The notes beneath the pieces were generated by a model. The model was not told the DNA's origin. It made no database searches and worked only from the letters and a program-made list of their open reading frames with translations. Shown here piece by piece: positions 14,388 to 16,799 of a stretch of 42,776 bases of DNA (position 1 is its first letter; each line of letters opens with the position of its first letter). Source of the stretch: Solimonas soli DSM 21787 (GTDB taxonomy: Bacteria; Pseudomonadota; Gammaproteobacteria; Nevskiales; Nevskiaceae); NCBI RefSeq assembly GCF_000474945.1, contig NZ_KI440839.1, forward strand, positions 191,911 to 234,686, given 5' to 3'. A program made the position numbers and the translations under genes.

Positions 14388-14957
14388 TCAGGCAGCGCGC
14401 GCCGCGGCGAGCGTGCGCGGCTTCTTGGAAACGGCGCCGCTCGACAGGACCGGGAAGCTGACGGTGTCGCCGACGAGCATCGGCGGGTTGGCGTCGATCA
14501 GCTGATCCTTCATGGCCTGCAGCCGTTCGCACACCTTCTTCTGATCGAGCCCGGCACGGGCGACTTTCGGGAAGAACTCGTTCTCCTCTTCCTTGACGTG
14601 ATGCTGCACGTATTCCTTGAGCACGGTGACACGCGCCTCGAACAGGTCGTCGCCGGCCTTCATGCCGTCGAGATCCGCCATCAGCTGCTTGAGGCTGGCG
14701 TGCTCGACGACGGCCTCGTCGACCTGATCCTGATCGCCCTTGCCCAGCACGCGGCGCGACTCGGGATAGAAAATCTGCTCTTCGATTTCGGCATGAACGG
14801 TCAGCGCGTGGCAGATCGCGCTGGCCAGGGCGACCTTCTCTCGATCGTCCGTGGTGTTCTCGAACTGCTTGAACAGCGCTTCGACTTCGCGATGATCGGC
14901 CTTCAACAGCTCGATCGCTTGTGGCGCGTCGCCGAGGGACAGGCTTCCGATCTGCAT
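14388..14957 (-). CDS. Hemerythrin HHE cation-binding domain protein
   Basis: The 189-aa protein has an HHE-type four-helix bundle at about 15-135. Likely metal ligands are His22 (ADHREVEALF), His50/His55 with Glu59 (HALTVHAEIEEQIFYPE), His86 (VEHASLKQ) and His119/His120 with Glu124 (YVQHHVKEEENEFFP). The last 55 residues are a basic tail without clear homology (AVSKKPRTLAAARAA). ATG at 14957 has GAGGAA 6 nt upstream; the open frame continues 5' to 15281 only because it runs through an SDR relic. Members bind iron and are tied to oxygen, NO or oxidative stress handling; which one applies is unknown. It is unlike the bacteriohemerythrin at 9260 in sequence. Confidence 0.88.
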   Translation of the reverse strand: MQIGSLSLGDAPQAIELLKADHREVEALFKQFENTTDDREKVALASAICHALTVHAEIEEQIFYPESRRVLGKGDQDQVDEAVVEHASLKQLMADLDGMKAGDDLFEARVTVLKEYVQHHVKEEENEFFPKVARAGLDQKKVCERLQAMKDQLIDANPPMLVGDTVSFPVLSSGAVSKKPRTLAAARAA

Positions 14958-15049
14958 GGTGGCTTCCTCGTTCGATGGACTGAGACGCCACGATAGAAAG
15001 CCCTGAATGAACCACGCCAGAATGGCGTTTTGCGATTGCGCCCTGCAAA

Positions 15050-15233
15050 ACGCCGTGCTCGCCGAGATCGCAGCCCTGTCGGCGGCGAGCTTGTCGATGC
15101 CGGCCTTGTGCGCGCCGCAGGCCGGTCCGTAGACATCGTGGACGGCGCCGGAAGCCGAGGTGAAGACGATCAGCCCGCGAGCGATGCCGCGACCGGCGCC
15201 CGTCGTCACCGCAACCTCCCGGTGCTCCGCCAT
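15050..15233 (-). pseudogene. Short-chain dehydrogenase relic 2
   Basis: The frame starts like an SDR (MAEHREVAVTTGAGRGIARG, the nucleotide-binding TGxxxGxG region) and then jumps to the active-site segment (LIVFTSASGAVHDVYGPACG, AHKAGIDKLAADRAA). About 110 residues are missing between the two. The catalytic Tyr of YxxxK is Cys here (CGAHK, TGC for TAC), as in relic 1, but the sequence belongs to a different SDR. After the active site the homology stops. It ends about 90 bp before the HHE gene and is read in the same frame as that gene. Confidence 0.75.
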
Positions 15234-15339
15234 CCTCGCCTCCGCCGCGCCTGATCGCGCCGCTGAACATGTGTTCGGCATTTATAGCGTCGGCGATTTC
15301 ACGCGGTCAGTCGACGCGCGTGCAATCAACGTTGATGGA

Positions 15340-15647
15340 TGGTGCCCAGGGACGGACTCGAACCGTCATGCTCTTGCGAGCGGCAGATTTTCGTACCACT
15401 TCGGCTTTCGCCGCCGACGAACGTTCGTGGTCTGGAGCACGCCTTCACCGTGGCCCAACAGGGCTGTAGGTGCCCGCCGTCTGCTCTCTACACCTTCCCG
15501 ACGCGGTTCGCGCGGGCTTGGCTCGGCATTAGCACGGGTAATCCCAGAGCCTTCACCGAGTTTGACGGGCTTCACCTGCAGGGTTTCCCCCGCAGGGCTC
15601 ATTGGTTGGTTTGAGTCTGCTGTGTCTACCGATTCCACCACCCGGGC
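15340..15647 (-). tRNA. tRNA-Leu(CAA) interrupted by a group I intron
   Basis: The two exons are 15613-15647 (35 nt) and 15340-15391 (52 nt, encoded CCA included). They join to an 87-nt class II tRNA. The acceptor stem is GCCCGGG against CCTGGGC, the anticodon stem GCAGA against TCTGC with loop CTCAAAA, the long variable arm GCTC-GCAA-GAGC and the T arm GACGG-TTCGAGT-CCGTC. The anticodon CAA reads UUG. The intron follows C34. Without its removal the tRNA cannot fold, so splicing is needed for use. No T-run terminator follows it; a short palindrome at 15325-15336 lacks one. Confidence 0.92.
15392..15612 (-). ncRNA. Self-splicing group I intron (IC3-like) in tRNA-Leu(CAA)
   Basis: The 221-nt intron resembles the Azoarcus tRNA-Ile intron along most of its length. 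P1 is 5'-exon CUC with guide GAG (in AATGAGCCC), giving C34-G instead of U.G. P2 (CCTGC/GCAGG) ends in a GAAA loop. P4 pairs CTCGGT with GCCGAG in the conserved GCCGAGCCAAGCC. The core continues with GAAGGTGTAGAGAGCAGACGG. P7 is GAGCA/TGCTC. P9 (CGGC-GAAA-GCCG) carries a second GAAA loop, and the intron ends in G. There is no homing endonuclease. It sits at the same position as the cyanobacterial tRNA-Leu(UAA) intron. Activity is inferred from the intact core. Confidence 0.9.
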
Positions 15648-15914
15648 AGGGCGTCGTGCGATTTTCGCATTTACGTGCCGGCGCTGTATAGCGGCCCCGC
15701 ATCCGCGCCAGGCTTTCCCGGCGCGCAAATAGGCGAGCCCCGGCAGGGACCGGGGCTCGGGGGAACCGCCGCGTCTTCAGGGGTGACTTGGCGGAATCGA
15801 GCCGATTTCAGGGGGACCGGCTCGAAACTCATGGTACGCAGGGCCGCCCCCATGCGCCGTCACGCAGTCGGCAAACTTTGTTTCAAAACGTAAATGCGCG
15901 CCGGCCCGAAACGG
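15648..15914. other. Intergenic region upstream of the split tRNA-Leu
   Basis: It must hold the promoter of the tRNA on the minus strand. A TATACA-like -10 (near 15695-15700) is visible, but no good -35 at the right distance. No gene is seen. Confidence 0.35.
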
Positions 15915-15962: not shown

Positions 15963-16799
15963 TCAGAGCTTGAAGTCCAGGCGCACGCCGGCGTGGTAGC
16001 TGTAGGTGCGCGCTTCGCGCTCGGCGTAATAGACCACGCCGCCGCCGCCGATGCGCACGTCGGGGAACCGGCTTTCCGGGTTGACGTACACCGGGAACTC
16101 GACATTGAGGCCGAAGCTGAGCGAGTCGAACTTCACGCTGCCATTATTGTTCTCGAGGCGCAGATGCGAGTAGCCGATCGGCGCCGACACTTCGAGGAAG
16201 CGGAACAGATTGCCCGTCGGCACCACATAGAGACCATACATCTGGTTGGTCTCGACCTTGTCCGAAGCATTGCCGTCCTCGTTCTTCACGCCGAACTGCG
16301 CTTCGATGCCGATCGACGGAAACAGGCGCGTGCCGACGCGCAGGCGGTAGAAGTCCGAGTCGAACTCGTCGCCGCCCAGTGCCTGCTTGAGGCTGTCCTT
16401 CGACAGCGAGGTGCTCAGGAAGGCGTAGTCGACGCCGCCGTAGACGTAGAAGGGCTCGCGCGACGCGGAACCGCTGCGGCTCTCGTCGCTCGCTGCGGTG
16501 TCGCTGCTGCCGGCATCGGCGCTGCCGTCGGCCGGCGCGGTCTCGCCGCCCGCTGCCTCGGTCCCGGTGCTGTCGGGGCCCGCGGCACTGCTGTCCGCGG
16601 CCTGGTCGGTACCGCTGTCGGCCGGCGTGGCGGCATCCGCGGTGTCGTTCTGGGTCGATTCGCCGCTCGCCGCATCGGGCGTCGTCGTGGACTCGGTGGC
16701 GGCCGGATCGGTGGCGGCATCCTGGGCCTGCGCCGGGACAGCGAAACCGGCGGCCAGCAGCAACAGACCGAGAGGCGCGTAGGCGCTATGCATTTTCAT
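15963..16799 (-). CDS. Outer-membrane beta-barrel protein with acidic Ser/Thr/Ala-rich linker
   Basis: The 278-aa protein has a signal peptide (about 1-25, ending AQAQ). A low-complexity segment of about 85 residues rich in D, E, S, T, A and G follows (about 26-112), with no Lys and a single Arg near its end. Then comes a small barrel of about eight strands (FYVYGGVDYAFL, FYRLRVGTRLFPSIGIEAQF, MYGLYVVPTGNLFRFLEV, YSYHAGVRLDFKL). The barrel resembles the OmpA-like porin fold (OMP_b-brl). The acidic linker may bind cations or be exposed at the surface. Function is unknown. ATG at 16799 is taken; ATG at 16793 is equally possible. It is a single-gene unit with its own terminator. Confidence 0.8.
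   Translation of the reverse strand: MKMHSAYAPLGLLLLAAGFAVPAQAQDAATDPAATESTTTPDAASGESTQNDTADAATPADSGTDQAADSSAAGPDSTGTEAAGGETAPADGSADAGSSDTAASDESRSGSASREPFYVYGGVDYAFLSTSLSKDSLKQALGGDEFDSDFYRLRVGTRLFPSIGIEAQFGVKNEDGNASDKVETNQMYGLYVVPTGNLFRFLEVSAPIGYSHLRLENNNGSVKFDSLSFGLNVEFPVYVNPESRFPDVRIGGGGVVYYAEREARTYSYHAGVRLDFKL

Follow-up and report, generated by a model that had tools for sequence, protein, structure and literature searches.

The window analyzed here, a stretch of 42,776 nucleotides from Solimonas soli DSM 21787 (genome G000), contains a tRNA-Leu(CAA) gene that is interrupted after C34 by a 221-nt insert, which its predicted structure confirms as a group I intron. No second Leu(CAA) gene was detected in this genome, and the pair at the 5' splice site is C-G in place of the conserved U.G. 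Some related intron-bearing tRNA-Leu genes in other bacteria lie on integrative elements that split the native tRNA gene of their host. It is probable (roughly 60%) that a working, intron-bearing Leu(CAA) gene of such an element-borne lineage displaced the native gene in S. soli and that the element has since been lost.

Anatomy of the interrupted gene and structure of the intron

The original prediction had placed the gene at positions 15340 to 15647, which is correct, with the gene on the minus strand (Table 1). From the joined exons, ARAGORN returned a tRNA-Leu(CAA) of 87 nt, as anticipated; on the uncut window, it missed the interrupted gene and called only a tRNA-Pro gene. The insertion point follows base 34, as had been claimed, and the 3' end of the intron reads TACG. 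Of the elements that had been named, P7 (GAGCA/TGCTC), the GAAA loops in L2 and L9 (here L9b), and the terminal G are present in the intron sequence. Between the tRNA gene and a hemerythrin-like region, positions 14388 to 15281 hold an open reading frame whose start looks, by eye, like a decayed dehydrogenase fragment.

Table 1. Features of the interrupted tRNA-Leu(CAA) gene and its surroundings in the S. soli window
Feature	Position	Strand	Basis or remark
tRNA-Leu(CAA) gene, interrupted, CCA encoded	15340..15647	minus	Joined exons give tRNA-Leu(CAA), 87 nt
5' exon	15613..15647	minus	C34 at 15613 is the 5' splice-site base; homologues compared
Group I intron, 221 nt, final base G	15392..15612	minus	Rfam Intron_gpI match below gathering score, plus covariation
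3' exon, including CCA	15340..15391	minus	
Internal guide GAG	15598..15600	minus	G at 15600 opposite C34
P2, GAAA loop	15575..15596	minus	16-intron alignment
P3 5' strand and J3/4	15561..15570, P3 partner 15472-15481	minus	16-intron alignment
P7 5' strand GAGCA	15482..15486, partner TGCTC 15435-15439	minus	Both-side changes in 3 of 5 pairs, 16 introns
P9 domain, GAAA loop	15395..15431	minus	16-intron alignment
Upstream stretch, blastn homology to G006/G007 absent	15648..15717	minus	Homology present again from 15718
278-aa protein gene adjoining the tRNA gene	15963..16799	minus	Of nine genus relatives having a homologue, seven show it by an uninterrupted Leu(CAA)

The original prediction had counted the lack of a group I covariance match above threshold against itself. 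The Rfam model Intron_gpI (RF00028) matched the gene with 23.2 bits (E 0.001 when 601 bases were searched) against a gathering score of 50, so that the claim formally fails by its own threshold; this match was the only one listed in the G000 genome at E up to 10. The assignment to group I is upheld by structure and by covariation. Sixteen aligned Leu introns were scored with a hand-made structure of 57 pairs, giving 903 cells. Pairing was seen in 91.4% of the cells, against a shuffled mean of 85.9%, and 17 pairs were changed on both sides, against a shuffled mean of 9.8, such changes being found also within P7 (Table 1); the number of pair types was equalled in 8 of 500 shuffles. When the partners were slid by 1 to 3 columns, pairing fell to 30 to 40%, a comparison biased in favor of the unslid structure, which was drawn from the window's own sequence. 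Specifically, P1 between the 5' exon and the guide was paired in 100% of its cells over the 16 rows, and the pseudoknotted P3-P7 core, P4 to P6, and P8 were all found in the alignment. The first pair of P5 was broken in 11 of the 16 rows, and P9a pairs were weakly kept (18.8% and 76.9% of cells). The subgroup is presumably IC3 or IC3-like.

Base 34 at the splice site and its distribution

In P1, the 16 aligned introns have a U-G pair at the 5' splice site in 12 cases and a C-G pair in four, namely, in the window, G091, G1096, and G1112; C-G is also found in G742. The conserved U.G, taken here as non-defining for group I, is thus replaced by C-G in the window intron, in agreement with the original prediction. 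A change of the guide, which had been offered as a possible origin of the C-G pair, is ruled out by the invariant GAG: all 16 rows share it, whether the intron is in Leu(UAA) or in Leu(CAA), with C32-G, U33-A, and the G opposite base 34 all kept, and only exon base 34 is altered. The Tetrahymena ribozyme with a C-G pair at its splice site has a lower activity, which is not abolished. In the intron tree, C34 requires two changes, and a single change was sufficient in 0 of 200 bootstrap trees, which disfavors a single origin; on the starred branches alone only one C34 change is forced, the key forks being moderately supported (90/82 and 88/85). Judged from this tree, C34 most likely arose twice.

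All counts from the genome surveys are lower bounds, since the patterns require a fixed P3 or core motif. Of 85 genomes in the order, 4 contain the core pattern, G000 among them; they have five such introns in all, and one of these interrupts a tRNA-Ile(CAU)-like gene. With the pattern left open at base 34, 12 of 293 genomes of the order of G091 and 22 of 369 genomes of the class were matched, and among these C34 occurred in G091 and G000 only. In a phylum sample of 398 genomes, the C34 pattern itself was present in four (G000, G091, G1096, and G1112), and G742 was added by the core pattern, which was found in 1 of 15 genome entries. The proposed genome search for Leu(CAA) genes with this insertion thus yielded four genomes besides G000, and the C34/C-G form is known here from five genomes of four families. 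The suggestion that the case is without described precedent stands in part: no group I intron in Leu(CAA) was found in the openly licensed literature searched, but the form is carried by these five genomes. In one further contig scan, with a pattern off by one, 33 of 33 matches read CTT followed by C, i.e., U34. A viral scan gave at least 120 stretches, and 78 of the 80 listed have U34. The remaining two were rejected by eye as viral C34 cases: in L294 the 3' exon begins with T, making it a Leu(UAA) gene with the insertion after U33, and L295 does not resemble a tRNA. A second group I-like intron of genome G029 (L085, 1330-1660; G029:C79) lies in a tRNA-Ile(CAU)-like gene, by eye after U33.

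The G000 genome has 44 tRNA matches, and the Leu genes among them are UAA, UAG, CAG, and GAG. Another intact Leu(CAA) gene, which would have told against the original prediction, was found neither among these matches nor by pattern, which finds the UAA gene only. By pattern, G091 and G742 also lack an intact Leu(CAA) gene, Leu(UAA) being detected in both, as does G1096, where the CAA match is a half gene. In G1112 the pattern matches neither Leu(CAA) nor Leu(UAA) and is silent on copy number.

Kinship of the gene and integrative elements in relatives

The nearest relative of the window intron is the Leu(UAA) intron of G054 (identity 0.851), and the nearest relative of the window exons is the same intron-bearing Leu(UAA) gene (0.897); the trees of introns and of exons both pair G000 with G054, at 90/82 and 98/90, respectively. 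The native Leu(CAA) exons of seven genus relatives reach identities of 0.747 to 0.793 with the window exons, and the nearest uninterrupted Leu(CAA) gene, from G017 of the same family, reaches 0.841, which makes the exon contrast only moderate. The window exons being nearer to G054 than to the Leu(CAA) genes of the genus, the whole gene appears to have moved, not the intron alone, and the proposed switch of host tRNA is upheld. The other four C34 genes form one group, in which the exons of G091, G742, and G1112 are identical. At the locus itself, nine genus relatives have a homologue of the 278-aa protein, and an uninterrupted Leu(CAA) gene lies within the same 3 kb in G007, G006, G008, G001, G002, G004, and G005; it is absent from the locus in G003 and G010. 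G006 and G007 are alike over 5.2 kb, and homology of G000 to them is lost 71 bp upstream of the tRNA, with no blastn match to them close to the tRNA on the downstream side. The gene was thus probably replaced as a whole at this locus, not merely interrupted. In sum, the original interpretation holds for the intron class, its position, the C-G pair, and the change of host tRNA, and fails for the guide; it had overlooked two points, the apparent joint transfer of exons and intron and the location of related genes on integrative elements.

A native tRNA-Leu 5' half was found 220 to 1645 bp upstream of the intron-bearing gene in G054, G031, G029, G1096, G291, and G311, and likewise, at 237 bp, in Methylocapsa acidiphila B2 (L111). 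Among 11 intron genes examined with uneven coverage, six have the 5' half, three have both halves, and five have neither. The space between the truncated native 5' half and the intron-bearing gene is occupied in G054 and G031 by a gene that matches PHROG integrases (5.8e-24 and 3.9e-35); Pfam integrase domains were detected in the G031 protein only, with Phage_int_SAM_3 above and Phage_integrase below the cut-off. Matching native 3' halves were found in G291, G029, and G1096, and ARAGORN recognizes the rejoined halves as complete tRNA-Leu genes (UAA, UAA, and CAA, respectively). From the coordinates, the elements measure about 51.5 kb, 82.7 kb, and 66.8 kb. These three combine native halves with a short common core, an integrase, and a replacement of the same anticodon as the destroyed gene, the native tRNA-Leu being split in the anticodon loop and not rebuilt. 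The core common to the two junctions is CTT^AAAATC or CTC^AAAA, and the intron falls inside it. The integrases, with Phage_integrase and Arm-DNA-bind_3 domains, lie inside the element next to the 3' half and are 61 to 69% identical to one another. The G1096 element carries the CAA/C-G form and has the Trb conjugation genes TrbI, CagX, and TrbL next to the interrupted tRNA gene.

No 3' half was found for G054, G031, G311, G737, G1112, G742, G091, and G000, a search whose coverage was short at the contig ends of G054, G031, G742, and G091 and about 18 kb for G311. Wider scans with short flanks gave a 5' half in only 1 of 34 alphaproteobacterial-set rows and in only 2 of 31 class rows (G291 and G311, already listed above); none of the 120 viral rows was a genuine case. 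Among 68 neighbor proteins from 27 of the 34 alphaproteobacterial-set loci, the 25 families listed of 59 include no integrase. An apparent lone 3' half in L251 is in fact a complete tRNA-Leu(CAA) gene, and the open reading frames that precede the intron gene in L248 and L250 encode carbon-nitrogen hydrolases. Downstream of the intron gene, an integrase is present in L248 and L281 and, by similarity, in L250 and L141; the integrase-like frame of L141 (2063-3046; G430) lies just 3' of an intron-bearing tRNA-Leu(UAA) gene and is 43.5% identical to that of L248. On the window contig, searched from end to end, neither a half-tRNA nor a remnant of eight integrases was found; the queries gave only matches of 14 to 24 nt (E 0.002 to 0.008), taken as chance.

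Interrupted tRNA genes were also observed in phages and plasmids. The Gordonia phage Daredevil is described as inserting into tRNA-Lys-TTT without rebuilding it, lacking a tRNA of its own, and forming clear plaques (PMC10865867). Its genome (NC_048021.1, 41816-42131; L408, 2840-3155) contains an unannotated tRNA-Lys(UUU) gene that is interrupted after U34 by 238 nt, near a copy of CGGACTTTTAATCCG (an attP-like core) and an integrase gene. Of the window query, 35% matched at this gene (72.1%, E 1e-6); in Rfam the intron reaches just 15.4 bits (E 0.4), so that it is called on its likeness to the others. In a plasmid collection, 1272 of 72,556 records match the window gene. Interrupted tRNA-Leu(UAA) genes, not annotated as such, occur near aac(3)-IId in L061 (2995-3293; pCTX-M3), L062, and L063, and the nearest of the compared rows to the plasmid gene is a Xanthobacter gene. 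In viral contigs (L216 to L335), tRNA-Leu(UAA) genes with a group I intron are common, and the best HNH family at these genes accounts for 13 of 65 neighbor proteins. An intron-bearing viral tRNA-Leu query matched 58 phage records, with a coverage of 71 to 75% in unannotated huge-phage records; cyanophage S-TIM5 and its kin match 29% of the query at an annotated tRNA-Leu gene, apparently the exons only. According to a 2014 review, all phage introns observed until then were in protein-coding genes (PMC3984707).

Origin of the S. soli gene and comparison with known systems

Starting from the gene anatomy, the copy number, the kinship of exons and intron, and the element structure in relatives, the following course would account for the S. 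soli gene. The window gene would descend from an intron-bearing tRNA-Leu lineage carried by integrative elements, an origin suggested by analogy with G054 and G1096. Such elements insert into a host tRNA-Leu gene at its anticodon loop, leave it unrebuilt, and supply a replacement tRNA with the same anticodon as the target. Since the intron splits the core common to both junctions, the element's own integrase should be unable to target the replacement, a shielding that may follow from this geometry, and in the RNA the group I intron would excise itself from the pre-tRNA after C34. A stand-in for Leu(CAA) needs C34, and because C34 is also the splice-site base, U.G would have turned into C-G. 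In G000 the element would be gone, the tRNA staying behind.

Alternatively, an intron-bearing Leu(UAA) gene could have reached the Leu(CAA) locus by transfer and homologous recombination, followed by a U34C change, with no element in its lineage. The window contig, on which no element is left, would agree with this, as would G742, whose homology to G755, where the locus is uninterrupted, runs to the 3' boundary of the 5' exon; the genes of G742 and G091 stand behind a promoter-like TTGACT...TATAAT (by eye) with no remnants, the G091 contig ending 550 bp downstream, and the title of Rudi 2002 refers to recombination of the entire tRNA-Leu(UAA) locus. However, in G054, the closest relative found, the copy is preceded by a split native tRNA and by an integrase gene, and we regard an element-free history as unlikely. 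An invasion of the native Leu(CAA) gene by the intron alone, through reverse splicing or endonuclease homing, is quite improbable: it is disfavored by the kinship of the exons, which are nearer to the intron-bearing G054 gene than to the Leu(CAA) genes of the genus, and a 221-nt intron is too small for an endonuclease gene of its own. Group I introns are in general capable of both movements, and HNH endonuclease families top the list among the 65 neighbor proteins of the viral Leu intron genes. Very improbable is that the gene is an unspliced pseudogene, with Leu(UAA) reading UUG by wobble. The replaced splice-site wobble and the intact Leu(UAA) gene of G000 would fit this, but the core helices and the joined exons are intact, and five genomes retain the C-G form, three of them sharing identical exons. 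Splicing of the window gene is what we infer.

A broader proposal, plausible and still tentative, is that group I introns in tRNA anticodon loops act as integration shields. The elements would destroy the host tRNA and bring a replacement whose target copy is split by a self-splicing intron, working as RNA and hidden as DNA from the integrase; C-G would arise on a switch from Leu(UAA) to Leu(CAA) targets, and the anticodon-loop position of bacterial tRNA group I introns would be explained. The elements in relatives suggest a route by which tRNA introns lacking an endonuclease gene spread and a reason for their position in anticodon loops, and the Daredevil case suggests that intron-bearing replacement tRNAs escape annotation, which would alter counts of tRNA-dependent integration. 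As the conserved U.G pair has natural C-G exceptions, most likely of two origins and with a constant guide, tolerance of C-G becomes testable in native RNAs, among them that of the only Leu(CAA) gene found in G000.

The Leu(UAA) introns aligned here resemble the window intron in their location in the anticodon loop, the insertion after base 34, and the guide GAG, and differ in the host tRNA, which is Leu(CAA) in the window, and in P1, which has C-G there and not U.G. Insertion after base 34 and the guide GAG are features that we take to be those of the cyanobacterial tRNA-Leu(UAA) intron as well. The Azoarcus tRNA-Ile(CAU) intron presumably has an IC3-like core in common with the window intron, in a different tRNA and at a different insertion position. 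Group I introns of tRNA-Leu(UAA) are described from cyanobacteria and plastids (PMC4033280), and putative ones in Gammaproteobacteria from Beggiatoa/Thiomargarita (PMC4853749). The logic of a replacement tRNA has a precedent in tRNA-dependent lysogeny (Guerrero-Bustamante and Hatfull 2024, PMC10865867). Here, by contrast, proteobacterial elements are the carriers, conjugation genes being present on one of them, a group I intron interrupts the replacement tRNA within the core, and the window copy stands without a remaining element; no replacement tRNA whose group I intron falls within the integration core was found in the CC-licensed literature searched. IStrons likewise couple a group I intron to DNA mobility, with the intron joined to an insertion sequence there and housed in a tRNA gene on an integrase element here (PMC4227781).
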